Shown: piece by piece, positions 5,656 through 43,099 of the stretch | Layout of the letters: each line of letters opens with the position of its first letter | Position numbering within the stretch: the first letter of the stretch is position 1 | Assembly: GCA_002205965.3 (NCBI GenBank) | Contig: NADL03000596.1 | Coordinates: 682,001-746,000, forward strand | Reading direction: 5' to 3' | Source of the DNA: Kappaphycus alvarezii | Taxonomy: Eukaryota > Rhodophyta > Florideophyceae > Gigartinales > Solieriaceae | Length of the DNA stretch: 64,000 bases | Notes under the pieces: generated by a model | Told to the model about the DNA's origin: nothing | Seen by the model: only the letters and a program-made list of their open reading frames with translations | The model's database searches: none | Program-made: the position numbers and the translations under genes

Positions 5656-8600
5656 TCAGCGCCCAGTTAGCACACAATCGATAAGTCGCTTCAACCCTTG
5701 GATCCACTGAGAGTTCGACTCCCAGTGTCTTTTTGTAAGAGTCGTCACTATAGCACTGGCTTGATCATAATTCCCCTTTTCGATTGCTTTTCCTACTTCA
5801 ATCAACAAATTAACAACTGCACCGTCGACCAACCTTGCGTTCAATCCCGCTACTAACCTTCCCAGCCTTTTGCTCACGTCATCCATTTTCTTCTTGTACC
5901 TTGGCGATTGGTTCAAACCTTGAGCGTACATGTAAGCACCACGCAGCGATTTTACAATAACCTGCTGATTCCCTGGTACTTTGGACACATCTGCCTTGTC
6001 CAGAAAAACAGTTTCAGTTCCAAGTGCTGAGAGCGATGAGGACGTTGACCCAGATCTTTGCGGTGGTCTGCCAGGCATCCCAGAGCTGGAGGGAGGCTTA
6101 GTTCTCCTGGTCTCCGCAACTGCGACCTCAGCAGATGGTGGCAAGGTAGCACCAGACCCTGGCTTAGCTCTGGCATGATAGGACGACGGGGGCGGGACAG
6201 ATTCGTCTGTCGGGGGTGGTGGAGGGGGGGTGCAAAGTCAGCAACAGGGGCCGAGTGCATACTGCCGCCGAACTGAGTCCTTGGCATTGGAGGAGGAACA
6301 GTACCACCTCCGGCAGCAGCGGGTGCCATAGGTGTTGGTAACGGCGGGGCTGCGGGCATTGGCGGCGGTGGGGCAGAATGCATTGTAGAGTCGAATTGCC
6401 CCATGGGAGCCGGAGGAGTTGCGACGCCTGATGTTTGTTGAAAGTCCCCGTGGCCGTATGTAGGAGCTCCTGCGTAGGCAGAAGACGGGTCGTAGACAGA
6501 CCTTTCTGCCGAAGGGGCAGAGGATCCAAACACATTTCCTGGTCTGGGTGGCGTTACTGACGGAGCGGATGGCATTGGTGGCGGCGCGGTAGTGGTCCCT
6601 CCGCCATGGCCATTGTAGGGCGACGTTGATTGTATCGTAGAAGGTGCGGGAGGCGCTACGGCTGCATGGGACGCAGTTCCCCATGCCGAAGAGCCTAGCT
6701 GCTGACCTGGCGCCTCGTACCCTGGCACTCCACTCGTGTAAGTCTGATCCTGGTACGAGCCGCCATAAGAAGTGCCGTACGGGTCGTAACCGGCTGTCGC
6801 GACATCTCCCATACCCTGAACCGCGGCAAGCTGATTGGTGTCAGAACCATTCAGGCTCTCCAGTGCTCGTGCCTGTATCAACTCCGCGGAGCCATACACA
6901 CATGAGTAGGATGGATCCAAGTTGTTGAGGTAGGTGACTGCTTTCGAAAAGTTTCCTTGAGCAGCCAGGAGGGCACCATACTCGCATAGAACCGACCCAC
7001 TGACTTCGTCCAGTGCCCTCACTGCACCAATCTCTGGTTCTCCATTGCACAAGGCGGTTGCTGCTGTGACCAGGCGCACTCTCTGGACTACCTCCGTCAG
7101 TCTCTCAATCCTGTGCGACATCATCACAGACGTAGCTTTCGCGGTTGACGGTCTCTCCCGCATCCATACTGTCGTTGCCATACGGGTATTACCCGCGCAT
7201 ATGAAGCAAAACAACGCCGCTGCAGGATCATTCCCAACAAGTAATCGCTGACCAAGGGCGCTACATGATTCAGAAATGTCTTCCGAAGCGCTGTAAGTTA
7301 ACACGACAGCAAGGGCTTCTTTCCACGATTCCTTCCCTGCCTCTGCAGCCTCGCAGACAAATGTATCCATTTTGCTCTTTGGCCCAGCCACCGCACCGAC
7401 AATACTGGATCCCTCTGATGAGCTGACCTTAGAGAGGTACTCTGTTTGAGTCTTCAGCCATAGATCTGGTCCACCAGCGTAAGCAATTAGCAGAGCATCG
7501 GCAGCACGCCCCACGTACATGCACGCTTCAACGGCCGCTTCGAAATCTCCGACAATGACAGATCTCTTAATTAGATTATCAATCTCTGGCTTTGACTTTG
7601 ATGCTAGACTCTTGGATTTGTTTATAGCCTCCAATAAAGTCCCGTTTGGCTTGTTCACATTACCTTCGAACCCACCGTTAGCGGTGTCATCTCCATCAAG
7701 AATGCTGTCCTTCATGTTAACATTGTCCTCAACGGGATCTGAATCTTCCCATGGTGCGGGGCCATCCAAATTCATCGCCGAAGCTCCATTCGCAAGTGAG
7801 TCGACAGTGGCAGTAGTATCAATTTTGTTCTCTGGGATGTCCACGGCAGGGACGGGAGCCGGTCGTACGGGCACTGCCAAAGGTTGTGACTGAGCCAAGC
7901 CGTACACCGGCATATTTATGTCGTCACCGGCATCCGGAGGGGGAAGCTCAAAACCCAGGTATTGAAGAACCTTCCTCCTGCAATCAGTTTGAAACATCAA
8001 CGTGAGCGCATCCCATGCCATTTTTTCCCTTGGAGTCTCCGCACAGCCGGCCGCCTTCTCACACCACTCCTTGGCTGGGGAAGGATTCTCAGACGTCAAA
8101 TCCATAAGGGCATTATCTAACTCTGAAGGGGCCTCTGCTAATCCTGGAAAGCTCTCTTGATACGACTCAATGCTGACAACTCTCGAAGTGTCCTTACAGT
8201 TGAACGATGCACTTACCCCTCCAAATCCAAACGATACAGAAACAGGTTTTCTCAACCACTTTGGAGGCCTTGTTACATTGTAAGCGACACGTTGGGCGCC
8301 CGCAGCACGAGGTGATGCCTCCGAGACACCACTTTGAAAGCCATCTGCCATCTCACCAAATGACTCAGCCAGGGCATTTACGGTTTCACTGGAGACAGAC
8401 GGCGCAGTTGTAGAAGTCATTAAAGAGTTCACAGTGATTCTACCGTCGCAGGCGGACGCGAGGTAGAGCCCGGGGATTCTGGGCGACCACTTAACGTCAA
8501 AATTCCATTTGGCAGCCTGCGGGGCTTCAGATATAATTTCACCGGATGCCACGGACACAGCAACAGTCCTTGAATCACGCGACGATGTAAGTAGCATATC

Positions 8601-9463
8601 GGGATCGTGAGGACACCAGTGGCTAGAGACAACGCCTCTTGACCCATGATGTGAGTAAGTGAGGATAGGGGCGGAGGAATTACGAAGATCATAGAGCACG
8701 GCTCCCGTAGATTCGTCCTCCTCGCAGCAAACGACAATCTGGGTTGCATTCTCAGGATGCCAAGCAAGGGAAGAGCACCGAAGACGTCCTCTTGGATTTC
8801 GGATGTCGATGACCCAGCTGCCTTTCTTTAGATCCCATATACTCACAGTGCTTGAACTAGTTGCCGTGGCTAGAATGTGAGGGACGCGACGATTCCACGC
8901 TGTCGCTGTGATCTCCTCTTTAAGCCCGGCGTTCGAGATGTTTTGATTCTTGGCGGGCGGTCTTACGGCAGGGCCAGCGGAAGGATTAGCAAGATCCCAT
9001 ACCAATATCTGACCATCAGCAGATCCCGTGGCCAACCTTGTCGGCATACTAGGATTAAACGCCAGGCACGAACCGGTGCGGAGTGTTTCTTTTGGGCGGT
9101 TGGCCCTCCAAAGAGCACGGCAGTGTTCTCATCAGTGCGACCCTGCGAAGAACGAATAAGTGTAGCAGCATCCCACACGCGAACAGTGCCGTCACTCATA
9201 CCACCTGCAATCAAGCCGGCTGGATGCGCACGGGAAGGAATGGCCCAATCGATGGAACAAAACTTGTCGGGAGTAGGAACATCAGCAATGGGAATAAGCT
9301 TTGATTGTTGAATATCGACGGACATAAGCTCGAGAGAGGCGCCATTGGCGAAAGAAGTATCAGCGGAACCAGCGTAAGTGCCCACGGCGATGTAACCGCC
9401 GCCAGCACCGCCTGGAGACCAGGCACCTACCGCAAGGCGACCTAGCTCCGCTACTACACCCAT
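5656..9463 (-). CDS. SEC31: SEC31 homologue (COPII outer coat), two frameshifts
   Basis: COPII outer-coat subunit that assembles with SEC13 on ER exit sites. N-terminal WD40 blades are clear: GGMSDGTVRVWDAATL, LATGSADGQILVWDLANPS, a TATSSSTVSIWDL blade, a LAWHPENATQ blade and a LLTSSRDSRTVAV blade. An alpha-solenoid follows (e.g. the DNLIKRSVIVGDFEAAVEAC segment), then a long Pro/Gly/Ala/Ser/Met-rich linker (roughly 6200-6750), then the C-terminal SRA1/Sec31-type helical domain (5656-6000). Total ~1,270 residues, about the usual size, with no introns. The frame changes twice: near 9060-9075 inside a WD40 repeat, and near 6224-6230 at a run of seven G on the plus strand. Protein similarity continues on both sides of each break, so these are single-base indels. 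Assembly error is the simplest explanation because the gene is otherwise intact and essential in known eukaryotes. Confidence 0.9.
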
Positions 9464-11378: not shown

Positions 11379-11820
11379 GTGTCTATTGGACCGTTGTCCT
11401 CATATGAGGACTACTTTTAGCACTTCTTTTTCAATACAAAATTTTTTTACCTCAGCGCATTTCTTGTCCCTCCGCATTAGTTCATGAGTGTAGATGGCCG
11501 ATCAAAACAAACTTTTCAAGATTGTTGACCTCGGTGAAGGCTAGGCCAGTTTTCCCTCACCAGCTTCCGCTCTTCGCAAGAAGTTGTGAAAACGACTTCA
11601 TTTTGGAAGGTAAAATAGTTCGTATTATCGTGGGGGGTTTCAGAAACGAGGGCGCATGTACAGTAAAAATTACTGTACTGTAACTAAACATAAAAAACCT
11701 TTTTTCCAGTAAAAATTTCGGGCTTCCAAAACATTTTCCTTTCCAAAATGGAACGGAAATTGTCCTCATATGAGGACAAAGTGTGCCTCATATGAGGACA
11801 GTGCGTGGTCGGATAGACAC
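11379..11820. mobile_element. Tc1/mariner-like MITE, TA target duplication
   Basis: 442 bp, flanked on both sides by TA (11377-11378 and 11821-11822). The ends are inverted: GTGTCTAT..GACC at the left (from 11379) and GGTC..ATAGACAC at the right (to 11820). Subterminal palindromes GTCCTCATATGAGGAC (11396-11411 and 11762-11777) and CCTCATATGAGG (11786-11797) lie inside both ends. An internal hairpin TACAGTAA/TTACTGTA sits at 11659-11677. No transposase ORF. Superfamily assigned from TA duplication and end type only. Confidence 0.7.
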
Positions 11821-11893
11821 TAGCGTGCACAATGAAGTCATCTCAAGGCGATGTAGTTCAAATTGTGGACTTCCTCGAATGTACCGTGCAGTA

Positions 11894-26400: not shown

Positions 26401-27968
26401 CATTCCATTTGGATAGCCTTAGTCCTATCTTTCGCTTCAAGCCCGAGTCTATCTATATAAAGAGTCATCTTATTTACAACCTCTTTCATGCTTTTTATTG
26501 ACCGGACTGTCGAATTTCGTTTTCCTTCATCCAGGAGGGTAAAAATTACTTAGCTCCAAAAAATAGAGGAAACTTCAGCAAATATAGGTAGCTTTCGTAT
26601 GAAAACCTTACGTGAAAAACAATGTAAAAAAGCAAAAAGGAGATCGCAGGTAAGTCTGAAAGAATCGTTTTTGCTAGTTGGGTCCGAGTTAAATATAGAT
26701 GAATTGTTTGCTCACTTTTGCAAATTCGAGCGCGGTGGTCGCACAAATGGTACAAAATTTATAGCACCTGAGTACCTATCTAGTATAATATGGTATTTTT
26801 ATCTGCTATAATAAAGATCTTTCTAGAATATCCGTAAGTATTTACAATGTAGCAAAAAATACATAATCAATGATCTAAACGGAAGAAAAGAAAAGGACAC
26901 CACTTATTTCATATGTTGGGGGATTTTATTAAAGTGAACGCGAATTAAGTACCAATTTAATGTCTGTAGTATATGTAGTGTCACATCTCAAAAGGGTGAC
27001 ATGTGCAGCACGCGGCAAGGTCGCTGGTAGGGGTCTACTGTAAGCCGTGCAAACTGAGCTTACAATGTCTTAAACAACCGCTGATCTTTTAAAGTTAGGC
27101 TTCGCGTTTCTGCAGCAAGAACAATTTTTTACGTCTTCTGCCTGATATCAGTTTCCTGATTAGCTGTCTTGTAATTGCTCCATTGCACTGTATATGATAG
27201 TACAGTAAAGTGAAAATTAAACTACCGTAAAATGTGAATTTAGTGATTATAGTTGCATTCGCTTTTCATAATTATCACCTAAATATGTTGGATGCCAATT
27301 TATTCCTGCTGAGCTGAAATAGATAAGACTTTATCAAAGATTGTCGTGCTTGCGGTTCTGGCGTGCCCGCAGTTGCTGGCTGCATACCAGTACGGCTAGA
27401 GCGGGATTGAGTCCTCAAAAGAGGGGTCAGGGTTGCATATTGCGGGAAGCTGCAGCTCATTTGACGTTACGCATTTACTGAACTTTAGATACTGTGATGT
27501 ACAGTACGGAAGCATGCGCCGCTAGTGCTCAGGTTTTCTTTAGCCCCATCAGCGTGTATGGACACACTAAGAGTTGAGCATATGATAACATGCAACAGCA
27601 TCTGGCCATTGTACATCATTACTTCTACAAGAATCGTAAAAATTCTCCGGTGCTCCTCTCATCCAACCAATCAATAGGATAGTATAACTTTCTGTTCGCA
27701 TGGACGATACGCCAATAAACTCCTTCGAAAAAAGATAGGGCCAACAACTAAGAGTAGGCAAGCACCACTTCAGCCCATTGAACAGCTAACCAGAAGGAAG
27801 TGAAATAAATACTACCAATAAAAAAATCAAATTGACTGTAAAAGTTCAACTTTGCAACGCCACAGGGCAGATAATAACCCTTACTTGCTCGCCTATCTTT
27901 TCGCACGGGAAAAAGTTAGAGAGCTGAATAATCATTAGTAGAGCACCACTATATGATATAAAAGAGAG
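23458..27968. other. AT-rich stretch without genes
   Basis: 4.5 kb, strongly AT-rich, no supported gene. Short ORFs (for example 25717-25932 - and 26034-26255 -) have no family features. The one structured island, two abutting hairpins at 25406-25457, is listed separately. Confidence 0.55.
25406..25457. other. Two abutting GC-rich hairpins
   Basis: CCGCGCT/AGCGCGG (25406-25428, loop 9) is followed without a gap by CGTATAAG/CTTATACG (25429-25457), whose stem extends inward by CAT/ATG with one bulge. It stands out in AT-rich DNA. It could be part of a structured RNA or a relic of a mobile-element end; there is no evidence for either. Confidence 0.4.
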
Positions 27969-28726
27969 TGTAGTGCAACAGGCACGACGCGGGTGTTCTA
28001 GAAGCGAACCGGGAAAAGCGCTCCGTATTGGATAAAGGACAAATTGACTATTAGAGTCAAAAAAGGTTCTCGAAAAGAGAATGGGGAAGAAGGCGCACAA
28101 GGGCAAGGGAAAAGGGCAACGCAAAGCGCCAAAGAAAGAACATGCACCACGCGTGAATGTAATGCAGCGCAAAGCGCAACGTAAAAGGGCAGTAGCCATG
28201 GATACACGTCCTCCGCGCAAAGGGACGAGGGGTACAGTTCTCCCAATAGGACAAAGACAAAAGTAATAGGTACGAATCTGACGCAGCGCGACGGGCTCAG
28301 ATAGCCAAGCTGGCGGGAGGGGGCCGAAGAGGATAGTACCTACTATAGCTGCACGCGCGGCGCCACAACGAAAAGGGAACGCTGGTTGCAGGAGCAACAA
28401 CTAGAGCCGAAACCAAACAACGGTGAAGAAGATGGTACCTCCGGTACCTTTGCTAGTGGTGGTGCGACCTTGCACCAGAATAAATACTAAGTTAAAGTTA
28501 CTAGGTAGTAGTTAGGGCAAGTGTCACTCTGTTAGTTGATTAGCCCAAAATAAATATCAGGTCCAGGTATTGGACCGCCACCATCCCGATAGGGTCTCGA
28601 CCATGGGCCTAGAGGGCCACTGTAAACAAACTATAAATACCGTACTACAGTAACAGTGTGGCACGCGCCACCTACTATAAAATACATATTGACTTTTCAA
28701 ATGAATAAAAGTGCAATTGTACTATA
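27969..28726 (-). repeat. Chromovirus 3' LTR, 758 bp
   Basis: On + it begins TGTAGTGCAAC and ends TTGTACTATA (the terminal CA reads TA by one change). Same order of sequence as 41295-41975 but ~75 bp longer, because that LTR lacks the GGGCAAGGGAAAAGGGCAAC-type section near 28095-28180. Roughly 3% of compared bases differ over 28400-28726. Contains many hairpins, for example GGTACC-TCC-GGTACC and GGTGC/GCACC. Confidence 0.9.
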
Positions 28727-28739
28727 TCTCCCCCTTTTG
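28727..28739 (-). promoter_or_regulatory. Chromovirus polypurine tract
   Basis: On the minus strand CAAAAGGGGGAGA directly precedes the 3' LTR, as required for plus-strand priming. This fixes the element's orientation. Confidence 0.85.
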
Positions 28740-28805
28740 AGCGCACAGGCGCAAGGTTTGATTCGAATTGCTAAAAAGCAAAATACCGGGAATTAGTTTC
28801 CCACG

Positions 28806-31059
28806 TTGGGCGGCAACGTCAGGTTTCTTTCAAAATACCGTCGTCGGGTAGCAACAAAAAAAAATGAACTCGCCTGGGCAAGAATTTTCCAAAGGCTTTG
28901 GCACAAAGCTTACTTATCCCAAGATCGTCATCGATCATCCTCTTCCTCATCAGAAAGTTCATCTGCTGCATCACCATCCATTAAGGATAACAGTTTACCC
29001 ATACGCGCCCCGAGTCAGTCCAAAACTTCTCCAGTCACACGTGACCTGTCAGCCCTCAAGGGTGATTCCCCTTCGGCGCGTACGCCTTCGCGTCAAAAGT
29101 CGGAGTCCTCCCCTGTAGTTCGTGTTGCACAACGAGTGCGTGTTTCTGCAGAGGTAAAACCTCTTTCACCAGACTCAACGGCTACTGGGTCCGTAACTAA
29201 GGCGGTGTCGCCCCCTGTACGCGAGTCGAGTGAAGACGACATCCTCCGGCCTGCAAGGCCGTCGTGGTACTCACCGAAAAATTCGGAGTGTTTCAATCTG
29301 CGTTTGCGCTCGACCAACCTTCCCTCTTTCAGGGTGCCAACCCGTAATCGCAAACCTGCTTTAGGTACTTTCCACAATCATTACTTCATAAGGCGATCTG
29401 GTTTTCTGGACACGACAAACAAAAAACCGCCTCATGCCCTCTTTTCATTCCTATGACGAAACTCCTGTTGGAGGAGATGGATGGCCGTACTCCTCAGTTT
29501 CGGAGCTCATGCGCTGTGACCCATGTCACGATATCGATGCGTACGTTTACGCTCCTTGGTTTTGCCCTAGGGGGTCTTGGAGACAACGCGTATTGAACGC
29601 GAGTATTGCGACGGGAGTGGGTTTCTCCCTGTAAATGTGCCGTTGGAGGCAATTACGACTCGAGATTGGCTCGATCACCTCGCCTTCCCTATTGAGGCAT
29701 TTGCTGTTGGACCCACGGAGTCACTTATGCGTGCGTGTAGGCGCTTCACATGTGCGGTAATGGACCGCCTTGCTCTGTTGCCAGGAGTCATTCCAATTTC
29801 CCTAAGCCGGGGCTTCGATACGTGGTCCTACAGGACTAATTGCGAACGCCAGTATGGCGACAATCTATGCAGTCTTGCCTCTGGAAGCACACCACCTGCT
29901 CAGGAGACTGATGATCGTTGGCGCGGAGTGCGTGGTGTTCGTATCGCAGCCATGTTTTGGCTTTCCTTCATCATTCCGATGCATTTCCGCTTCCAAAGCG
30001 CAATCAACGTCAGTTTTTGAACCAAACTGTCAGATTTGAGAGTCGTATACGCGATGAAACGGGATATTTGATCCCTTATCAACAAAAAGAAGCAGAGCAC
30101 ATTGCTCCTCAGCACCTCGGACGTCTCCGCTTCCCGATTCCAGACTAATAGCCTCGCGCGGAGGTCTGTCAGGGATTCTGGTCCGATCTCGGACCGAGCT
30201 TAACCTACTTAGGTTCTTATTTTCATGAACCCGCTCATGGGTCTGGACTCTTTTCCATACGGAATATGCCGTGACGGTCGCTGCCTTCTTGCTCTGGGAT
30301 GTGCATGACACATGGCGACTGTGGTTCTTACCATATAAACTGATCTCGTGGATAAGATCTTTTGATATGCGTGTCCCGCTTCGGGGTGAGGACAATCACG
30401 ATGAGCTCGTAAAGCTCTTGGAATTTATCAAAAACATCGACTGGTCTGAGGTACCACTTCAGTGGAGTTCTAGGCCTCGTGGCTCCCATCGACCGCACCT
30501 GTCACCAGATCGAAACGATTCCAATGCTGGGGACTTTGTTTTCTATAACCCTAGGGAGGGGTGTCGTGTCACAGCCCGTGAGGCTCGCGAGGGGCGAAGA
30601 GCGCCCCTTGTAAATGCTATTTCTCGCTTTTCTAGTGCTCTAACATTGAGCGGTATTGGATCTAATGAGATCCCAATTGATCCCTCTATGCGTCTCGAAG
30701 GCGACGATGAGGATGCAGTTACGGCGCCAAATGCGGCTGCAAATGCAAATCCTAATCAGGGTAACTCAACCGCTGATTACATCGAAGTGGACGAGACTGC
30801 TACTCGGTCAGCTGATTTGTCTGGATTCATTGTCATGAAAGCAGCTGATAAAGCCAAGGAACAAGCAGGTAGTGCTGCTGGTGATAGGTCTGAATCATAC
30901 ATGATTAGGACGCTCCTGTCGAGCTTGGGAATGTCAGAGGCGGAGTTTGAGGTTCCCCTTTCTGAGCTGAAAGAGCTCTTGAAAACGGCACTACAATCGG
31001 TGCGTCAAGCCTGTCAATCGGGTATTAACAACCCACCGTCTCGTTCGTCGAGCATGTGA
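28806..31059 (+). pseudogene. Antisense ORF region inside the chromovirus
   Basis: About 2.25 kb of coding-like sequence on the strand opposite gag-pol, starting just inside the 3' LTR. Four open pieces follow one another in shifted frames: 28806-29456, 29392-29634, 29571-29940 and then to 30148, and 30229-31059. The first part is basic with a Ser-rich run (SSSSSSESSSAAS) and SP/TP-rich repeats. The middle part looks globular (DWLDHLAFPIEAFAVGPTES, PYQQKEAEHIAPQHLGRL). The last part is acidic with a C-terminal helix (EFEVPLSELKELLKTALQSV). No known family is recognised. Some plant LTR elements carry antisense ORFs at this place between pol and 3' LTR; similarity of position is all I can claim. 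The shifts could be decay, introns or sequencing errors. Confidence 0.6.
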
Positions 31060-34000
31060 TTTAGTTTCCCACTGGAACTTCGCTCTGTATGGATGAGCCA
31101 AGCTGGATTCCTTACTGTAGTTGACTGAAGGGTCGCGTAGGCCTCAACAGGCTGCCTTAGCTGCTCCTTTGCGTAAAGAGACTTTGAATGCGTACCACTT
31201 CAGCGCATTAGTCGTAGCTTGTAGAGCTTAAAAATTAGCGTAGGTGCGTGTCGCGTACGTATTCCAGTTGCCTGGTGCAACGTAGTTCAGTCACTCACAC
31301 AGATTGTTCTCAGTTTTCAATGTCCCATTGGACTACGTACTGCACTTGTGTAGTGTTTCTGTGTTTTTCAGGTGCACCTCACCTCTCACCAGTTTCACCA
31401 CTATGCATTGGCGTAGTTCTGAGCTCAAATAGCATAGGATTACCTTACGTTATAGTGAAGTACATGCCACAATAGCATACTCTGCTCAAGAGTAACTTCA
31501 GCTCCTGCTAAGCTCTGCATAACAACAATCATTACCACCCTCATGGTAACCTTGACAGAAAAACTTGTTTCCATTAATGTAACCATAAATTCAACAACAT
31601 AAGCAAACATGAATTCATTACTCCATGACTCGTTTGGGGTCTTGATTACACCTTCTAGTTTTAAGGAGTCATGAGAAACTATGGATTACCCAATCCAAGT
31701 ACGAATCCAACATGGATTTGAAATACCAACGCGTCGGCGCAATGCATACTGAGCTTCACTAGCTTTGTACTGAGTTACTGTTGAACCATCGCACATGGAA
31801 ACTCAAGAGAGAATCCTTTTATCTTTCACAAGACTTGAATTAGCACTCAGCAAGCCTCTAGGCTTTGAAAAACCTTAATAATGGGTTCTTATACTGCAAG
31901 CTTTCAATAGGCTTTTCACCTTGAAAATCCTTTTTAGGGATCAATTTTGTTCCGTCATGTAACTTGCATAAATTCAAGTCCTTCATGGACCATTCCATGC
32001 AGGAACTTTTGAGCTCTTGTCGCACACCATCATGGGTGCTTTTTATTGACGCGAAACTTCCATAGTTTCTTGCTGTAACCTGACTCTACATTGAGTCTTC
32101 ATTGAAGCGTCCATAGCTTCCTTGAACTATGGTCCTCTGTAGGACCTCGACACAACATGCTTCTGCGCATTTGTTCTTATCCATCAGGGACATCCATAAG
32201 TAATGTAATTCTTCATGGGTCATACCTGAAGATATCTCTTCTCGTAATCGATTATAACTCGCTGTCGAGCATGTTCCGTCCTCACTAAGGACTATTAATG
32301 TGTCTTATTGTAGGGATTGCTGGTTGAACGCGTTATCGCGTCCTGCTAAGTCCGCAAGAATTCAACGTAATACCGTGGCCCTTCGTGGGACTGTACTGGA
32401 GACCTTTCTTCGTACTTTCCACAATAAACATAACTTGATTATACATATCCACAAGCTCTCTAAGATTTCTTCGAACATGTCCTCCAAGGACTTTCTCCAT
32501 TCGTAGCTCATTATCAGCCTCAGTCAAACCTTGACAAGGACAACTTACACATTGAACTTCAAAATTTCTTCGTTCTCTGGCATAGGTACATTACTCTAAG
32601 TTCATGAAGCTGCATTGCTTCTCTCTTATTACCAGACTCCGCTCGAGTCAAAGCTGAAGCTGCGATTGCTCTGCTCCTACTGTGTCCTTTCATAGGAATT
32701 TGTTACCATCGCGACACCGCGATTGTCTTGACCCCATTGGTCTCATACTTAAACACAAACCCGTTTGGGTATGAACTGAAGACCTTTCGTCTCGTTTTTC
32801 ACCTTAGCAATAAATGGTTTCGTCTGCCAAGCGCTCAAAAGCTCTTTAACTTTTCTTTGGAAGACTTTTTCAATTCATCCCGCTCGCGTTGAGCCTGTTT
32901 TCATCCTTCAGCAGGATTTACTGTATACCTGAACAATACAAGTTATAAGTCTCATTTCTTTGACTGTTCCTCCACTTCGGTTTCCTCAAACCTTTTCTTA
33001 CACCATGAACTCATGAGATCCTTTCATTCCGAGACTACATTATAGTCCTCATTATATTATGAGCTTACTAGCTCTCGCAATTGACTTCACACTGGGGATT
33101 GACAAATCTCCCGGAGGGGCCGTTTTAACATGATCCGTAATGGATATATTGGCAGTGTACACTTAAAAAAGTGTTCACTTCAATCATAACCATACTCATT
33201 CAGAGTAACAACAATGACAGCATATGTCTAATGACGCGCGTAACTATAACAGTCACTGTAACGAGCACCTATGCTCCCAATTGTACGATTACCTCAATGG
33301 TAATTTCCAAACCTATCAAGGTACCTCAATAGCCTGAACTCTCAAAGGAATTCTTCATTGCCTCGATGGTATAGTACAATTGTTGAAAAACAAAATAGTA
33401 AATCTGAGACCACTCTCTTTCTGAATACAAACTCATATTTTGAGTGAACGACATGGCTTCAGCCAAATTCCCACGTAACCTAAGTTGGGGAATGTATGCT
33501 GATGCTCTTCATCATGGTAAAACCCAAAATGGGTAACTGTCCTCACTGTAGGAGTTGATTTCTTTCTTACAACTTCGTCTTCATCAGACAATGATGGCAT
33601 GGTTTACCAGGACCCTTAACTATGTGAACAGTTACTGTACGTGCTCCCATCTGGGGACCATGTTTCCGTTTTCGTGCCACTTGGCACTTCCCTAATTCCT
33701 TTTAGCTTCCAAAAGGCTTTTAGAAGGCGGATTAGAATCCTGTTCTGGTCCAATCATAACCTACTATAGGTTAGAGTCACTCTGCTTCTCGCGATTTTCG
33801 AGTCTTCTCCCCCTTCTGAAGGGTGTTGTACCCTTTCACGGGCGGCAAAGAGCGGATACACTCGCGCGCGCTCTCTTTTCAGAGCTACTCACATCGGTAC
33901 CCCTCTGGGTCGTGTATTTACTAGGTCAGTAGCAGTTTTATCACAAGAACTTTGTGGTTTCCTGCTTCTGGGGCTCTTCGAGCCATGCGAACGTCCTCCA

Positions 34001-34222
34001 TGAGGTTCTCGTCCACCTCATCAAAATCCAGGACTTAATTAGTCTAAAGTTACATGGTTCACTTGCACTCTTTTTCCTGTTTCATAATGAAACTCAGCGT
34101 GATGCTTTTTAAGCAACTGTTGAAGGCAAAAAAAACTACCGAATTAACTGCCGAAACAACTGCTGACTCCCCTCACCCTCCTGAAGAGGGAAATTACACG
34201 TTTTTTTCACAACTACATTTCA
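31060..34222. other. Chromovirus internal non-coding, hairpin-dense stretch
   Basis: 3.2 kb between the antisense ORF and the chromodomain with no supported ORF. It is filled with short perfect inverted repeats. Examples: TTACCA/TGGTAA (31532-31549), TGGATT/AATCCA (31682-31697), AATCCA/TGGATT (31704-31718), GAAACT/AGTTTC (32053-32069), GGTCCT/AGGACC (32131-32146), ATCGCG/CGCGAT (32708-32723), ATTACC/GGTAAT (33288-33304), CCTTTT/AAAAGG (33698-33716), TAACCTA/TAGGTTA (33757-33773). See findings. Confidence 0.75.
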
Positions 34223-34558
34223 CTAGCCAGCTATGGACGAGTCAATCTCTGCCGGTAGCGGCAACTTTTTCCTCTTATAGTATTGAACTACCTTACTCCT
34301 GGGCAGTCCTGTAATAGGTTCCCATGTTGCTTCGTCCTCATGGTATCCGTTCCACTGGACCTTGAACAACAATTCGCCGTCCTCGGCTTCGCCGTGATCA
34401 ACAATTTGATCAATTACGTATTCTCTCTTGTCCTCTTGGACCGTGTCCATGTCCTTTTGGACCGTAGGTTGTTCTTGAATAGAATTTTGTGGTCTTGAGG
34501 CTCGTGCCTCGTTACTGATTTGACTTCGGGTCACTCTTCGCGTTGACTTCTTAGTCAT
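34223..34558 (-). pseudogene. Chromodomain (C-terminus of chromovirus integrase)
   Basis: Contains YVIDQIVDHGEAEDGELLFKVQWNGYHEDEATWEPITGL, the standard chromodomain order: Tyr/Val start, V-K/Q-W-x-G-Y, then ATWEP. In chromoviruses this domain guides integration towards marked chromatin. Domain length ~50 residues is normal. It is in the same frame as the integrase upstream (starts at 35731 and 36262 share the frame), with stops between. The N-terminal ~55 residues are a basic, Ser/Thr-rich linker. Confidence 0.85.
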
Positions 34559-34672
34559 TGGAACTTGAGACTGCGTAGTCTGCGGTTGCGTAGGAGGTTC
34601 GCCCTCCTTGTCAACATTGAAATTATCACGTCGTGATATATCAGGAGACTACACATCAGTGTTTTCCTTTTT

Positions 34673-36262
34673 CTACTCTGAGGAACTTCCTTCTTCGTCG
34701 TCAACCTGTTTACCTTGGTGGCCAGCAGGCTGAAACGTGGGGTATATTACGCACTTGATTGATGGAGGAACCTCTTCCTCTCTTGGTACCCTAGTGAAAC
34801 CTTCATCCACTGTAGAAAGGTCAACAAGACCTCGTGACACTGTGTAACCTTGTGGAACCCCTGCAACTATCGTTCGACTTTGTATAGTCGGTTGGTCCGT
34901 GGTCACTTGAGTGACATCTTGGCTTTGCGAGTTATCTAGCGGTTCGGTTGCCCTGTCTAAGGGACTGGGAGCTAACTGCACTCTGTCTCTTTAGATTCTT
35001 TCAACCATATCTCCATCTGAGATAACGACGGTATCATCTTTGACTTCCTTGACTCTGTAGGGTCCCGTGGCGACCGGTGCTAGCTTATGCCTGCGGTCTT
35101 GCTTGCCAAAATATTCCTTTCTTAGGAACACATATGATTCACCTGGGATCTCTTACTTCGGCTTTCTTAGCCTTGCGTCGAAGTTGCGTTTGTAGCGCGC
35201 TTGCTTCTTCTTAATAGAAGTCGAGGCTGAACGCATAAGGCGTTGTAACCATGACTGCCACTTAAGGTGGCACTGTCGTTCCGTCCCAAAATCTTCCAAC
35301 GAAGGCTGGGCTTGGATAGCCAAACTTTTTGGCGCGCGTGACAACTCTAGCTCAAAGGGAGCTAAGTTCGTAGTCCCGTGGACCTGAGTATTTTATGCGC
35401 AAGTTAACGCGCCATTGAACAAATCCCAATCCTTGGGATGATCAGCCACAAAATGCCTCAAGGCAGCGATAATAGTTCTATTGAACCCTTCTGATTGGCC
35501 GTTGGCCTGAGCATGGTACGTAGTCGTGAAGACTTGGCTGATCCCTAGGATCCTTGACACGTTCTGAAAGAACTTTGAGGTAAACTTTGTCCCGTTATCG
35601 GACAACAACTTGGCCGGGGGGCCGTACACAAATACCCAATTGTGCACGAATTCAAAAGCAACTGCTGCTGCCGATATCCTCTTGAGAGGTTCCGCTCGAA
35701 GTAATTTCGAATACCGATCCGTTATTACCAAAAGGTAACGATGAACACGTTTGGACTTGATTAGCTCACCTAAAAGGTCGATTGTAACAAACTACAATGG
35801 AGAATCGGGCGGGAATAGTTTCACATCTTTGCGGTGCTTCCGCGACATGACTCGGTTGCGGGCACAACTGATAAAATGCCGTACTACTGCGTAGCAATCG
35901 ATGACCATGGAGGGCCAGTAGTTATCTCTTGAAAGAGATTTGTACATCCGTCTCCCTCCTGGGTGACCTGCGGTCTGGGCATAGTACCCTATTCTTAACA
36001 CTCTGTGTTGTAAAGACTTTGGAATAACAATTTGTATCCTGTTTGAGGATAAGCGACAAAGGTAGCCTTCATAAGGTGTTGCTGTCATGGAGAACGGGAC
36101 AAGTTCTCCCTTATCCAATTTTGCCATGATGGCTTTGCAAAAAGGATCTGAATCCTGTTCACGAACTAACTCTTTGGGAGTTATCGCGACGAACTCATCA
36201 AGTTCTGTAACTGGGCTCTGGAGGGGGAACCAATCATCTACGAATTCATCGTAATTGTCCAT
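34673..36262 (-). pseudogene. Chromovirus integrase
   Basis: Three parts in one frame with a few stops. The N-terminal zinc-binding region (35792-36262) keeps the two His positions (HRVLRIGYYAQTAGHPG) but shows only one clear Cys in FISCARN, where two are expected. The catalytic core (35393-35731) has Asp in MVITDRYSK, Asp in LLSDNGTKFTSKFF and Glu in HAQANGQSEGFNRT, the DDE set. The C-terminal part (34982-35344) has ARYKRNFDARLR and a GPYRVKEV module, the GPY/F motif typical of chromoviruses. A linker of ~100 residues (34673-34981) leads to the chromodomain. Decayed but complete in domain order. Confidence 0.85.
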
Positions 36263-36484
36263 TTCCTCATTAGGATCATGATTTTCTTCTTGCTCCTTGC
36301 ATTGGAGACATGAAAACGTTTCTTCACATAAGAAACATGGAATTTCTTAGTTGATCTCAATGGTTGTGGATCCTGTTATCTCAAGTGAGAGCGCATCCGC
36401 TTGGGTCTTAGTACTCCCTTTTTTTATATATCTGACTTCGAAGTCAAACTCTCTTAGGCGAAGACACCATCTTGTTAATCGTCC

Positions 36485-36885
36485 TTATGGATCATTATCA
36501 TTCATGAGCCATTTTAAAGATGCATGATCGGTGTTCACAATGAACTTTTCCATTAGTAAATAAGGCTTTAATAGGTCTAGTGCCCACACCACTGCTAGGT
36601 GCTCCAACTCTGAAACATAGTATCTGGTTTCTGTACAGTATCTAGTAATGTTCTCGAAAAGAGCCATATCGGTTTCCTTTCACCATCAGGGTGAGTCTGG
36701 AATAACACAGCTCCAAGCTGAATCTTGGATGCATCCGTATCAACGGAGTATGGAAATCCTGGCTTAGGTAAAGCCAATACCGATGGCGAAAGAATCGCCT
36801 CTTTCAATGAATGGAACGCTTGTTTCCCTTCATGACCAAAAGTTAGCAATATATCAGGTTCTCCTTTTCGTAGGAGCTTGAACAA
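36485..36885 (-). pseudogene. Chromovirus RNase H
   Basis: VDTDASKIQLGAVLFQ gives the first catalytic Asp (~36745), then YYVSELEHLAVVWALD gives the Glu (~36600) and VNTDHASLKWLM the second Asp region (~36525). One frameshift between 36595 and 36667 moves the rest of pol from the frame of RT into the frame of integrase. Confidence 0.85.
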
Positions 36886-36924
36886 GGGATGCGCGATAAG
36901 GGTAAATTACCGAATGAAACGTCT

Positions 36925-38256
36925 TTATACGTTACAAAAACCGTAAAATCTTCTTAGCTGAGTTCCTCTCTTAGGCATCTGTGCCTCCTTCAATGCCGGT
37001 AAACGGAAATGATCGATCTCAAGCCTTCCTGGCCTAATAAAATGACCAAGATATTTGATCTTATCGGAGAAAAATTCACACTTTCTCAACTTGAGAGTAA
37101 CACCTGCCCTTTGAATGGTCTTTAAGGTTTCATCTACATGATGAATGTGTTCCTCGCCATTGCGAAAGAAGATAATAATGTCATCTAAACACACGAGACA
37201 TGTTGTCCACTTGTACGGCGACAAAAGAATGTCGATAGCACGTTGAAACGTAGCTGGCGCGCTGGTTAAACCAAAGGGCATCCGTAAAAAACGGGACAGA
37301 CCACTGTGGCATGTGAATGCCGTTTTGTCCCGATCTTCTTCGGCGACGGGGATCTGCCAGTATCCCCATTTAGCGTCGAGTTCTGTGAAGATCTTTGCCT
37401 TCCCTAAAGAGTCTATGCACCCGTCCATACGAGGAATTGGATAAATATCCCTTACCGCAACTGCATTCAGTTTCCTAAAGTCGATACAAAATCACATGTA
37501 ACCATCTGGTTTTGTAACCAGCAAAACGGGCGACGGCCACTCTGACTGTTCCGACTCAATTATTCCGGCCTTCAACATCTTTTGGACCTCTTTTCCTTCT
37601 ATTTCTCTGGCCTTCTGGCCTGCGCGATACGGTGCCTGTGCTATAGGCATAGTTCCGGGGACTAACTCAATACGATGTTTCGTAGTCTTGATTTCCCCAA
37701 GAGGACCGTCCCACATTGAGGAATACTTCCTCAGCATTTCACGAAAACGCTCTCTTAGAGCTTCGGTCACATGAATAAGGTCAAGGTCATCCACTCCTAA
37801 GAGTGCAGTATTATTTGCTACAGCCTTTGTGGCTTCTCTTTCCTGTGAATCATCTTGACTCTCTTCCTCTTTTCCTTCCTCAAGAGATTGTTCAACTTGT
37901 ACCTTTGGGGTACTTACCTGGGTTGCATGAGCATCACCTTTTCTCGTTGACTTATGAGAGTCTTTTGCTTTCCCCTCGGTGACTACGAGTACCTTTGCCA
38001 ACTTGATGGGGCTGTCGACTGTTGCAGTCGAATGCGGCAATGTGGTAGCAACCACTAAATTTTTGAATACCCGTTTTGGGATTTTAGTGAAGTTTGCTAT
38101 AAGCAACTTGAATGGTTGGTAGCGTTCGACCTGTACCACGCCATTAGCAATGGATAGTCCATAAAGTTCATATAGCTTCGGTACTGGTTGGACAACCAAT
38201 AATCCGTACCTGTTACAGGTAACCTGAATTAACATCTGAGAGTCCGGGGGACTCAC
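36925..38256 (-). pseudogene. Chromovirus reverse transcriptase
   Basis: N-terminal part (37492-38256) ends in VQKMLKAGIIESEQSEWPSPVLLVTKPDG, the usual entry to gypsy RT. One in-frame TGA (37492-37494) interrupts before FCIDFRKLNAVAVRDIYPIPRMD. Core (36925-37428): FTELDAKWGYWQIPV with the first Asp, RMPFGLTSAPATFQRA, and CLDDIIIF for the YxDD box, where the usual Tyr is Cys. Protein order and spacing are normal. The DNA coding for WGYWQIP forms a GGGGAT/ATCCCC hairpin (37348-37367). Confidence 0.9.
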
Positions 38257-38391
38257 GAACTATTGTGCGCAACGCACTTTGTTTGATGTTCGCTTTTGCG
38301 AACTTTCTTTCTGCTCAGGTGGGACCGGAAAGTTGAACCCTGCCTTCAACAAAGGCTTTCTTGTTATCGGAACGGTAGATCCGTCCTCTAA

Positions 38392-38946
38392 TTACACCAT
38401 CCTCTTTCTAGAATTTATCTTTTCGACATATCTGCCACAGTAATCTGCACCGATAACTACGGGTGCTGCTAGTCTATCACAGACTATGAAGGCTACTTCT
38501 ACAAGAAGTCTTCCAAGCCTAACAGGCGACGAAATTGTTCCTCTCATTGCGCGTTGATTGTTATTTGCATCGCAAATATCGGGCAATGGTCCTGAATGGA
38601 TCCTGTGTTCCAACTCCGGGGGCAGTTCACTTCTTCTTATGAAGTTTGGTCCCGCGCCAGTGTCTAACACTGATAACGAACGTCTCATAAGAGACACTGA
38701 AATACCAATTTCTATATAGACGTTGTACTTTCTCTTGGCGAGAATGAGTATCTTACCCGGGCACTTCGGGTTATGGTACCTGACCCATGGTCGGGTGAGT
38801 AATAACGTTGAGGATGTTTTCCTCTTGACAATAATCCTCTTGGATTCGATAACCACTTTGTCCTCTTGGACTTTTGAACCAATAACTGGGTTAGGGAGCG
38901 GGGTAGCGACACCCCGAGTGAGGCGTAGCCTTTCCTCTGTTCTCAA
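38392..38946 (-). pseudogene. Chromovirus aspartic protease
   Basis: Retropepsin-like: LSVLDTGAGPNFI gives the catalytic Asp-Thr-Gly-Ala (~38665), and PVVIGADYCGRY the second hydrophobic-Gly motif near the end. Same frame as RT. The N-terminal ~100 residues are basic and Arg/Lys-rich. Confidence 0.75.
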
Positions 38947-39107
38947 TGGAACTCCCTCTTCTAGTTTTTCGACTTGGTCATGATGACCTTTTGTTCACCA
39001 TGCTCTTGTGACCTATGTTGAGGTGAAGACATCTCTTCCGCAATTTGGGCCTGGCCCACCTGTCTATTTACGTCCGATACGGACATGCTTGCCGGTGTGC
39101 CGGTCTC

Positions 39108-39506
39108 TTACTGAGCCATGAATTGGTGTATTCTTTCATAACTTGTGCTAGGCACACTTGATTTCTCCATGGGAGACAACGATTCGTAGTTCCTAACAAC
39201 TGTCACCATATCCTTCAAAGGATGAACAAAGTCTGTTGATACGTGACCGTGCTTGTAACCCTCATAACAACTAATGTGATGCCGACGCTGAACCTGTTGA
39301 GGTTTCTGCTGCGTTGGTTTGCTAACCCAATCTGGACGACTAGATTTGGTTCTGCTGTCCTGATAAGAAAGTCTTTGTGCATTATGCGCTCTACTGGGGT
39401 CTTCCAAGGCCAATAATGGTTCGATCGACATCGAAAGCTGACCTGTTTCTTGTGAAACACTTAGTTCCTCCGAAAAGGAAGGTTGTACTGGGGTACCCTC
39501 TTGCAA
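39108..39506 (-). pseudogene. Chromovirus nucleocapsid with broken zinc knuckle
   Basis: HHISCYEGYKHGHVSTDF matches the retroviral CCHC knuckle by position (C, G-H retained), but the second Cys reads Gly and the fourth reads Phe. This region is in a third frame relative to gag and protease, so at least one shift lies on each side. Confidence 0.55.
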
Positions 39507-39856
39507 GAGGTGAACCTCCTCGTACAGTTGACCATGATGGTCTATTGTATGGGACTCTCGTGAGCCCGTAGGGGATTAAATGAGGTTGTTTGAACCTCTT
39601 GATGTCCACCTTGGGTGGCATGTTCCTGTGGGCGACGACGCCCTTCTTGGTGTCGTTGTTTTGACTAACTTGTTATCAAACGAAACTTTTTGTGGAACAT
39701 GAGCTCTTGCTCTAACTGCTTAGCCCTCTGCTTTGGAATAGTCTACTAGTTCCAAAAAGGAAATCTTACGATGCGATTCGCGATATCTTGCATCTACTAT
39801 CTTCGTGGTGTTGTCGAGACCGTCGACAAACATGATCATTAACTCCTGGGAGGAGT

Positions 39857-41028
39857 TTATATTCCCACAACGGTTTGAACTGGAATGGAGTCATTCGTTG
39901 AAAAGCTTCTAAGAAGCCATTGAACCGCCTCTGGCCAAGAAGTTATCCCTCCCTGATCAGAGTTTGTGGCTTCCGAAACCGATCGGAACATTCGCTGAGC
40001 TATTCCGCCAAGGAAATCCGTCAGCACTCTAAAAGCTTGTGCCTCCGCCATACCTTGTAGGTTGAACTCGCGCAATAACTTCTGCAAGAAGTCGAGAATA
40101 ACAATGGGGTCGTCCCCTGTGAAATGTTCCTCCTTGTGGAGTTTGGTACTGATACGCCGCGCGTAATCGCGAACATTTCCCGATTCACGGGACGATAAAC
40201 GTTGGGATATATTATCCAGTCGTTTCGTCTCATAGGACACAATCCTTTCAAAAAGGTGGTTGGTTGGCTTGAGCTCTTGTAGCCCTTCCAATAAGAGACC
40301 ACGATAACCTCTTCTCTTCAACTTAGAAGTTGAACTTCTATGGGAACTAGTCTTCTTAGACTTTCCTGTTCTCTTGGATCCTCTGGTCGCTTACTCTTGA
40401 AGGTCCTACCTCTCTCATTAACCGATTGTTTCGTGGTGGAACTACTTTCACTGGGCGAATTATCGCCATCTTCAAAATCCACACCATCTGAGGTTTCCGA
40501 CGAGCTGGAGATCGAACTTGAACTTGGATCCGACGGATCCTGATACCTACTCTTCCAATAGTTTCTTACTTTCTTGTTCCTGCTGGAACTTTTCCGTGAA
40601 TTTATCGAAATATTTTCTTTCCTCGTCCCATAATGGGACATTTCCTGCTTGGATCCCTGTGGATCTTCGTGAATACGTGAAGCCCTTACATCCTCTAATG
40701 TTGCTTGAGCAACCGTTATCTCGGGTTGATCACCCCTCAACTCACTTGAATTTCCTTCAAGTATCGCTAACCTGCGCGCAATGCGCTCGAACATATCATC
40801 ATTATGATGCTTTTCCTTCGCCATGCCTTCTAAGGCTTGATTCACATCCGTCCGGTTGACGAACGCACTATTCCTTAAGAAATCTATAATATCCTTGGAC
40901 TCAGGAGAGCCCTCAAACTGCACTTCAATCGCGGAGACACGAGTCTTCAGTTTCTCAACCTTTTCAAAGGTCCCTTCCTCCAATTGGGCAAACGCCTCTT
41001 TAAGTATATTCACTTCAATAGTGATCAT
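39857..41028 (-). pseudogene. Chromovirus gag (matrix/capsid part)
   Basis: Two overlapping pieces. 40318-41028 opens with a long helix and coiled-coil-like segment (KEAFAQLEEGTFEKVEKLKTRV), then a Ser/Asp/Glu-rich linker. 39857-40321, in another frame, holds the capsid-like part: FTGDDPIVILDFLQKLLREFNLQGM, which fits the gag pattern of gypsy elements. A stop or shift separates them. The start near 41028 lies ~250 bases inside the 5' LTR. Confidence 0.7.
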
Positions 41029-41275
41029 TTCTTTGCACTGCTCTAGAATAGAACGTTGTTCCGATGATTCTTGTGGAGCATCTTCACCAAGAGCTGTAGA
41101 AGCTCTTGCAGGGTTCTGTGCTCCACGTGAGGAGTTGGACCCTGTTCGCAGACTCGATGAGTCGTAGACATTATTGACAAATTCGATTAGTAAGCAATGG
41201 GTTGCAATAAACTCTTTTCACAAACACAAAGGTCAGTAAGACCAAGAAAATTCTTCCAAAAAAAGAACGCTTCTA

Positions 41276-41288
41276 GGTCAAGAGACCA
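41276..41288 (-). promoter_or_regulatory. Chromovirus primer-binding site (candidate)
   Basis: On the minus strand TGGTCTCTTGACC starts six bases after the 5' LTR end. TGG fits the CCA end of a tRNA; which tRNA is not identified. Confidence 0.5.
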
Positions 41289-41294
41289 GAACTT

Positions 41295-41975
41295 TCTAGT
41301 TCAACAGGCACAACAGGGGTGTTCTAGAAGCGAACCGGAAAAAGCGATCCGTATTGGATCGAGGTTAAACTGTCTTTTAGAGTCAAAAAGGTTCTCGAAA
41401 AGAGAATGGGGAAAGACGCAAAGCGCAACGTTAAAGGGCAGTAGCCACGGATACACGTCCTCCGCGCAAAGGGACGAGGGATGCAGTCCTTCCAATTGGA
41501 CGAAGACAAAAGGAATAGGTATGAACCTGACGCAGAGCGACGGGCTCAAATAGACAAGCTTGTGAGCGGGGGCCGAAGGGGATAGTAGCTACTATAGCTG
41601 CACGCGCGGCGCCTTAACGAAAAGGGAACGCGGGATGCAGGAGCAGCTACTAGAGCCGGAACCGAACAACGGTGAAGAAGATGGTACCTCCGGTACCTTT
41701 ACTAGTGGTGGTGCGACCTTGCACCAGAATAAATACTAAGTTAAAGTTACTAGCTAGTAGTTAGGACAAGTGTCACTCTGTTAGTTGATTAGCCCAAAAT
41801 AAATATCAGGTCCAGGTATTGGACCGCCACCATCCCGATAGGGTCTCGACCATGGGCCTAGAGGGCCACTGTAAATAAACTGTAAATACCGTAGTACAGT
41901 AACAGTGTGGCACGCGCCACCTACTATAAAATACATATTGACTTTTCAAATCAATAAAAGTGCTATTGCACTACA
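41295..41975 (-). repeat. Chromovirus 5' LTR, 681 bp
   Basis: On + it ends GCACTACA (41975); the low end (41295, TCTAGTTCAACAGG) has drifted from the inverted terminus TGTAGTGCAACAGG kept in the other LTR. It lacks ~75 bp present in the 3' LTR. Hairpins include GGTACC-TCC-GGTACC (41683-41697) and GGTCCA/TGGACC (41809-41825). Confidence 0.9.
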
Positions 41976-43099
41976 GGTTTTGATGGCCTTCAGCTAATAT
42001 GTATATCAAACCGAAGGATTACGATTATATGGTCAAATAAGCTGTAACATCAGATGCAATCCCCCAAATGAAGGAAAGCGACATGTATATGGAGTTTTTT
42101 CAGGGACAAAATGAGCCTGAAGAGGATTTTAAGTCGGTTTCGCAGGAAATGCGACTCAACCAAGGTTCCGACTATGAAGATCAAGCTCGATCGTTTTAAA
42201 AGGCCGGTGGAGAGTAATTCTCGCGCTAACTTGCTCCACAGCGAGCAAAATTGAAGACGCATGTAGCCGAGCTTGTCTATTCAGGTATTTGGATACCTAA
42301 TCCGCAAACTGAGTTGAAAGCGACGCGATTAATTTTGCCTAATGCTGGCTAAAATTGTAAGATTAAGTGTTTCCACGATGCCTTGGGGCCTAGAGGGAGC
42401 CTACGAATTACAGTTATTACAGGAAATTCTTGGCCAAACAGTCATATTATCTTTCTAAAAGCCGGGAAAGGTGATATGTCTACACACATGTATTCAAAAA
42501 CTGTTCCATCGTGGTAACGCAGATAGATTCCAAGAATTTACATTAATCAATGCGGGAAAAGCTCGTCGGTGCTCCGGAATGCTAGTTTACAAGGCAAAAA
42601 GGGATGAAGAAATGACCGGAAATCGGTTAAATTAATCAAAGTCGAAAACCCAAATTTCCGAAAAGAACTCCATATCAGAATTTCTAGTTTCTTTTAGAGG
42701 GAAAACTGGAAATTAACCGTCTAGACTCTATTTCTCGCGCACATAAAATTAGAAAATAACTCCACTTTCCGTAGTTTAATGCTCGTGAGATAGAGGATTA
42801 CAGACCGCATAGATAGAAAATATTGTGAAAACAGTGGTATACGCAGGCTAACCACTAGGTAGCAATCTTTCTTTACATTAACTCGAACCGCCCATGTAAT
42901 TCATGCTAACACCATCGCACTACTACGGCACACCAGCATCACCTGGACTCCACTCTTTTTCCTCCAATCGTCCCCCCGTGTGTCATATTGCGTACCTCCT
43001 GAGGTTAACAAACCCCGAGAAGCTCCAATGTTTCCAATTAACCCTTCCCCTTCCCACCATTTCGTTCTGCTGCTTCCCCAAGAGTTAATTCTTCGCACG
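41976..43099. other. Spacer, no gene seen
   Basis: Mixed-composition DNA between the chromovirus and the Plavaka-like locus. Short frames have no features. From ~42900 the plus strand becomes strongly C/T-rich. Confidence 0.45.

Follow-up and report, generated by a model that had tools for sequence, protein, structure and literature searches.

The 14-kb chromovirus at positions 27969–41975 of a 64,000-nucleotide stretch of Kappaphycus alvarezii DNA (contig NADL03000596.1, positions 682,001 to 746,000; hereafter, the window) carries a dense array of short perfect hairpins that, judging from comparisons among copies of the element, is very probably under selection. The element is a Ty3/Gypsy long terminal repeat (LTR) retrotransposon with its sense on the minus strand and with broken reading frames. 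An earlier note, made from the letters of the window alone, had described it as a whole chromovirus filled with hairpins, and the observation was confirmed. The array probably acts as RNA rather than as DNA, and its hundreds of dispersed stem-loops may be bound by an RNA-binding protein of the element itself, probably Gag/nucleocapsid.

To quantify the hairpins, maximal perfect stems were counted and compared with 60 dinucleotide shuffles in 500-bp blocks. The element contains 217 perfect stems of at least 5 bp with loops of 3–6 nucleotides (nt), compared to 47.8 in the shuffles (z 26.5), and 71 stems of at least 6 bp, compared to 11.9 (z 16). Across the family of the element, short perfect hairpins follow one another at roughly one per 40–70 bases from end to end, protein genes included. 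The rest of the window matches its shuffles to the left (114 stems vs. 103.9) and to the right (91 vs. 82.7); density ranges from 10–22 per kb within the element and from 0–12 outside (mostly 1–6, the higher values being isolated peaks), and the step coincides with the LTR ends. The excess is confined to loops of 3, 4, and 5 nt and to stems of 5–7 bp, with none for loops of 8 nt or more or for 3-bp stems, and only a small one for 4-bp stems. Ten coding pieces hold 85 hairpins with loops of 3–5 nt, compared to 20.5 ± 4.1 after permutation of synonymous codons, showing that the encoded proteins are not their cause, and base composition is ruled out by the controls with shuffled sequence and with other loop sizes. 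Both dinucleotide- and codon-shuffled controls had been proposed in the earlier note. All ten example hairpins of that note were found where it had placed them, with every letter matching, and its hand counts for 31.5–34.2 kb were, if anything, low: about 33 stems (10–11 expected) became 41 (10.2), and about 11 stems of at least 6 bp (about 2.6 expected) became 13 (2.6). Coding and non-coding DNA alike carry the hairpins, as claimed; the stretch after pol has 12.8 hairpins/kb. The neighboring DNA lacks the property, including the region at 8–20 kb, which seems to hold another element (50 vs. 40.2 shuffled, z 1.6), and a cellular gene at 5952–9047 on the minus strand (9 vs. 11.0, no excess). 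No fragment of the same element was found elsewhere in the window by BLAST.

The trait is shared by the relatives of the element. A DNA search with the reverse transcriptase (RT) stretch in the host assembly (336 Mb, 884 contigs) found at least 40 genomic places at 70–100% identity, window included, 30 of which were cut out (L009–L038). All 30, among them the window copy, contain 9.8–25.6 hairpins/kb (the two lowest values come from loci that consist of the element only in part), judged against their own count for loops of 9–14 nt (1.4–3.9/kb, background about 3) and not against individual shuffles. In six copies, each in two pieces, density is raised throughout the element and falls outside (the pieces of L037 lack the 3′ end), with 19–25/kb in gag-pol and 11–20/kb in the non-coding part; the window copy has 16 and 13. 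A second family, represented by L057 (60% identical RT), reaches 22.2/kb (z 26.6–28.7), and its open frame of 1072 amino acids holds 70 hairpins, compared to 11.8 ± 3.3 in synonymous-codon shuffles. This family is young: of the 40 places listed for it, 15 are at least 95% identical in RT. Among the 14 retroelement loci that were shuffled, L001, L003, L007, L053, L055, L056, and L058 are not significantly raised, L054 shows a slight excess (z 2.7), and L005, L006, L008, L051, and L052 show a mild one (5.7–6.6/kb, z 3–5). The last five represent a Ty3/Gypsy-like family of this genome that is distantly related (37–38% RT identity), and their excess lies mostly in loops of 5 and 3 nt. Two relatives at about 50% amino-acid identity, L079 and L081, have 11.5 and 10.5 hairpins/kb. 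The two hairpin-rich families are sisters in the RT tree with a support of only 0.47 (long branches of L035 and L011 reflect broken frames, and L017 was too short to be included). RT relatives include Agarophyton P0118 (72% identity over 63% of the query), in keeping with a red algal host. A first scan of viral contigs gave no match and a second gave a single locus, L059, without excess (z 0.2). Twelve of 18 loci in bacterial and archaeal bins have z below 2; L060 and L075, the highest of these in RT identity, are raised (6.0 and 10.0/kb; z 4.1 and 8.5 in one count, 3.8 and 6.9 in another), and L061, L062, L065, and L068 have z 2.7–6.0, but with the excess spread over many loop sizes. The contigs of L060 and L075, filed under bacterial bins (Moorena, Robiginitomaculum), carry chromovirus relatives and are probably eukaryotic contamination.

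Comparisons among copies suggest that the hairpins are retained while an element is alive and lost afterwards. The longer the terminal branch of a copy, the lower its hairpin density (rho −0.78, n 26; −0.73 without L017 and L035). L017 and L035, the nearest to the star centers, may be consensus-like collapsed repeats; other copies agree with them. L021, near-identical to L020, was left out of the branch test and of the clades, whereas L025, L028, and L030 (partly element) were left out of the pooled count of G.U and A.C, of the copy alignment, and of everything built on it. L012, L033, L036, and L038 were left out of the stem and loop size counts. Between lineages (ten pairs in both directions, which share sequences and are therefore not independent), gag-pol differences per site are 0.123 in stems, 0.215 in loops, and 0.229 in the surroundings, whereas chance stems with loops of 9–16 nt show no gap (stems 0.216, loops 0.204, outside 0.205). 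The corresponding non-coding values are 0.227, 0.307, and 0.302, vs. 0.312, 0.308, and 0.288 for chance stems. Because of gaps or low local identity, 931 of 2,493 gag-pol and 1,524 of 1,702 non-coding hairpin comparisons were skipped, and the site rates are identity-filtered as well. The difference between stems and loops is significant in the single pair L017–L035 (p 3e-5). Within clades, where changes are mostly post-insertion, stems (46/2,459, 0.0187) and loops (15/825, 0.0182) change at equal rates (p 0.043 for the contrast with L017–L035). Where both sides of a gag-pol stem changed, pairing was kept in 180 cases and lost in 99, compared to 43:42 in chance stems. Non-coding lineages are 56–65% identical in a forced alignment and keep only 25 of 178 comparable hairpins, yet each copy has 11–20/kb, which suggests that density is conserved rather than particular hairpins; likewise, the stretch at 31101–34222 mostly fails to align to other lineages, yet their hairpin density is similar. 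Slower stems, the decay of density with branch length, and the density kept in unalignable parts support the idea that hairpin density was selected during the life of the element. Of the two causes offered in the earlier note, selection for a structured genomic RNA is the one supported, with RNA as the likely acting strand.

Base preferences within the stems differ between the two families. Beside the loop, the 5′ arm is pyrimidine-rich in the w clade (T/C, C, C; the same in the seven copies examined, window included), whereas it reads G/C, G, A/G in L057. At the second pair from the loop, the 5′ arm has G in 65% of L057 hairpins and C in 43% of L017 hairpins (p 7e-23); arm composition differs between the two with p 5e-12, 7e-23, and 2e-10 at the three loop-proximal pairs, 0.07 at the fourth, and 1e-4 at the fifth. 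Chance stems of L057 show no such preference. The hairpins share no loop motif, and known RNA tetraloops were rejected as candidates (GNRA 4 and UNCG 0 of 455 unique hairpins). Of the 133 stems in L057, 34 are 7 bp long and only seven are longer. That two families sharing one genome have opposite arm preferences suggests that the reader is encoded by the element itself, and a dedicated reader of this kind appears plausible to us on the basis of these sequence patterns. A CX2CX4HX4C (CCHC) knuckle is intact in four of seven w-clade copies (L021, L017, L035, and L026), although not in L011, L037, or the window copy.

A somewhat unlikely but substantial alternative is generic folding along the entire RNA, which, with no dedicated reader, would compact the RNA or protect it from nucleases, RNA interference, or the sensing of long double strands. 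Such folding is found in leviviruses and, as genome-scale ordered RNA structure (GORS), in some positive-strand RNA viruses. Fold z-scores on both strands, a check suggested in the earlier note, are low in the window element (about −1.5 on each strand in 55 windows, 31–35% of them below −2) compared to the rest of the window (−0.2 and −0.3), and the sense value of L057 (−4.3) is near those of MS2 (−4.4) and Qbeta (−5.0), RNA phages known for their structured genomes. By the same hairpin count, MS2 and Qbeta have 8.4 and 7.9 hairpins/kb (z 7.0 and 6.1) with the same preference for short loops of 3–5 nt, and loops without a shared motif also fit generic folding. However, energy rules imply that generic stability should favor longer stems and tolerate loops of 6–8 nt, whereas the excess is small past a loop of 5 nt and L057 mostly stops at 7 bp. 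In addition, generic folding leaves the opposite loop-proximal preferences of two families in one genome unexplained, and of the 13 other host retroelement loci that were shuffled, seven lack an excess and six have a mild one.

It is unlikely that the hairpins act as DNA, either in the single-stranded cDNA made by reverse transcriptase or, once copies are integrated, as small cruciforms, even though they are strand-symmetric, have loops of 3–5 nt that suit DNA hairpins, and show no overall G.U preference in near-perfect stems (G.U 271, A.C 263, all positions pooled). This equality first pointed to DNA, and sense-strand thermodynamic folding alone was rejected on account of it. The wobble argument is weakened by the RNA-only phages, which show little or no G.U preference in the same count (G.U:A.C 12:14 and 15:17; 19:11 and 22:15, for MS2 and Qbeta), so that the lack of wobble is compatible with RNA. 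In the w clade, a positional split made after looking, among related copies, gave G.U 110 vs. A.C 59 at pairs 4–5 from the loop (controls 181:205) and 58 vs. 70 at pairs 2–3. The excess of G.U at the outer pairs favors sense RNA, and the decay of hairpins after insertion speaks against a role in integrated DNA.

Template switching or fold-back by reverse transcriptase, the second cause offered in the earlier note, would perfect near-palindromes without any function. It is quite improbable as the main cause, despite its fit to strict Watson–Crick stems, loops of 3–5 nt, presence in both coding and non-coding DNA, and turnover of positions. Arm-to-arm correction should make about half of the stem changes compensatory doubles, whereas 180 kept double changes stand against 1,272 single breaks among 8,280 gag-pol pairs; nor does this process predict stems that change more slowly than loops or opposite arm preferences. 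Selection or protection of the hairpins by a host factor, confined to this element, is very improbable: a strong excess limited to some host elements would agree with it, but one factor should give one preference, whereas the two families differ, and the related elements on bacterial-bin contigs (L075 and L060) are raised as well. Chance, base composition, or an assembly artefact can be dismissed in view of the dinucleotide and codon shuffles, the loop-size controls, the flanks, the other elements, and 29 other copies.

Several results weigh against the interpretation as selected RNA sites for an element-encoded protein. The alignment of copies, another check from the earlier note, divided: unlike in gag-pol, double changes in the non-coding part kept pairing in only 24 cases vs. 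37 (chance 8:7). The contrast within and between lineages is carried by only 15 loop changes, and within clades the surroundings changed more (1,072/36,467, 0.0294) than both stems and loops of shared hairpins, in part because of the way in which these hairpins were chosen. Concerning the acting strand, substitution directions are balanced for G.U vs. A.C (335:347), the wobble signal is limited to the outer pairs, and it is absent in L057 (10:9) and in L079 and L081 together (5:11). Fold z-scores of the antisense strand almost reach those of the sense strand, and in the non-coding part of L017 they are the lower of the two, so that only the wobble bias favors sense. Concerning the reader, no CCHC knuckle was found in 6 kb of L057, where gag may lie partly outside, and hairpin spacing is within two standard deviations of random in all eight w-clade pieces, although it is more regular in L057 (coefficient of variation 0.75 vs. 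0.98 ± 0.08). Finally, L078 (59% amino-acid identity, long open frame) and L080 (50%) show no excess (3.0/kb each), implying that such an element can survive without the trait.

If the hairpins are sites on sense RNA, the full-length chromovirus transcript would be selected to carry hundreds of strictly paired stems of 5–7 bp with loops of 3–5 nt of almost any sequence. These stem-loops would be dispersed sites for an RNA-binding protein encoded by the element, most likely Gag/nucleocapsid, and many weak sites per RNA could help this protein to coat, select, and compact its own 14-kb genome cooperatively and with a preference for acting in cis. After insertion, a copy would no longer be tested and its hairpins would decay. 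More tentatively, the array could form a self-identity code over the whole RNA, in which the three loop-proximal pairs of about 200–300 stem-loops per genome are read by the element's own protein. The two families would use opposite codes (YCY vs. AGG/AGC on the 5′ arm), each protein packaging only its own RNA, and the code would be imposed via synonymous codons and held by density, not position. If this is right, LTR retrotransposons contain an extreme version, and one that can be dated, of the genome-wide dispersed RNA signals that are disputed for RNA viruses. With at least 40 places for each of two families that differ in preference and include young and old copies, gain, loss, constraint, and specificity of hairpins become measurable without experiments. 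The array would also exert strong selection on synonymous sites of mobile elements, and it might allow an element to distinguish its own RNA from the RNA of related elements.

The features of the element are listed in Table 1. The Pfam domains on the window pieces follow the order RVT_1, RNase H, Integrase_H2C2, rve, and Chromo, and the order RT, RNase H, integrase was also checked in the sister copy L021. Together with the LTR pair, this supports the designation as a chromovirus.

Table 1 Features of the hairpin-rich chromovirus in the window (coordinates of the forward strand)
Feature	Coordinates	Strand	Basis and remarks
Whole chromovirus	27969–41975	−	LTR pair, Pfam domains, 217 vs. 47.8 hairpins
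3′ LTR (left on + strand)	27969–28726	−	9.2 hairpins/kb (loops 3–5)
Pieces of conserved open reading frame antisense to element	28797–31059	+	Frames conserved in sister copies
Post-pol stretch, no recognized sense gene	31101–34222	−	12.8 hairpins/kb
Chromodomain, integrase C-terminus	34223–34648	−	Pfam PF00385, E 9.9e-12
Integrase (H2C2 + core), two open pieces	35393–36346	−	Pfam PF17921 and PF00665
Example palindrome hairpin	36433–36446		Between RNase H and integrase pieces
RNase H piece	36595–36906	−	Pfam PF17919, E 8.3e-17
Reverse transcriptase piece	36925–37491	−	Pfam RVT_1, E 3.7e-30
Probable protease	38392–38994	−	DTGAGPNF read by eye; no Pfam match
Gag region, several broken frames	39108–41217	−	Open frames; knuckle degraded here by eye
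Example hairpin, 8-bp stem, 5-nt loop	41088–41108		In gag
5′ LTR (right on + strand)	41295–41975	−	11.8 hairpins/kb (loops 3–5, from 41297); first two bases by eye

The two LTRs are 83% identical with gaps counted and have the ends TGTAGTGCAA..TTGCACTACA, with the inner ends partly mutated. The divergence between them is uneven: one half is near-identical, whereas the other has diverged strongly. The 5′ and 3′ LTRs of L017 and L021 have differences in common, and the 5′ flanks of these copies look alike, a pattern that suggests a duplicated insertion, recombination, or assembly collapse. No target-site duplication surrounds the window element (GAGAG at 27964–27968 vs. GGTTT at 41976–41980); by eye, L021 is flanked on both sides by TTTAG. 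Two pieces of the gag region in the window gave no Pfam match above the cut-off. The open reading frame (ORF) antisense to the element lies in the 5-kb stretch after pol, consists of 511 + 164 amino acids in L021, and lies at 2857–4887 of L046 and 2432–3187 of L048 (minus strand in both). It has no Pfam match and one database relative (P0121, 41% identity) among the candidates scored. Elsewhere in the window, a direct repeat pair at 11893/18183 resembles the LTRs of another element, and the palindrome TCCTCATATGAGGA occurs twice just ahead of it, near 11.4 and 11.76 kb (11396–11779). The cellular gene at 5952–9047, a frame of 1031 amino acids with WD40 repeats and a Sec16/Sec31-type domain, is likely Sec31.

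In agreement with the earlier note, no title or abstract opening among the search results from one open-access library describes an element of this kind. It resembles Ty3/Gypsy chromoviruses in its LTRs, the order RT, RNase H, integrase, chromodomain, and the CCHC knuckle in four of six sister copies, but differs in the hairpin array, the size of 14 kb, and the conserved antisense ORF after pol. In Ty1, Ty3, and retroviruses, Gag/nucleocapsid selects the genomic RNA; the RNA of Ty1 has a compact structure at its 5′ end, and that of Ty3 is given as structurally uncharacterized (PMC4974528). Unlike the array described here, the part of that packaging account considered includes no genome-wide arrangement of hairpins (PMC4974528). 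The element is similar to GORS viruses in that structure is genome-wide, coding regions included, and folding energy lies below that of shuffles, whereas a sharp rule for stem and loop size, a family-specific base-pair preference, and an LTR retrotransposon as carrier set it apart. A further parallel is with the dispersed packaging signals of MS2 and other small RNA viruses in the model of Twarock and Stockley, as outlined in part of PMC6281560, where many short, individually variable stem-loops through coding RNA likewise act collectively. There, the MS2 signals share a loop xxYA and a bulge as their recognition feature (PMC6281560), whereas in the element the loop sequence is unconstrained and the preference resides in the base pairs next to the loop, protein binding being a prediction. 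Hairpin density amounts to 1.7 times the MS2 value in the window copy and to 3 times in L017, in a retroelement rather than an RNA phage.

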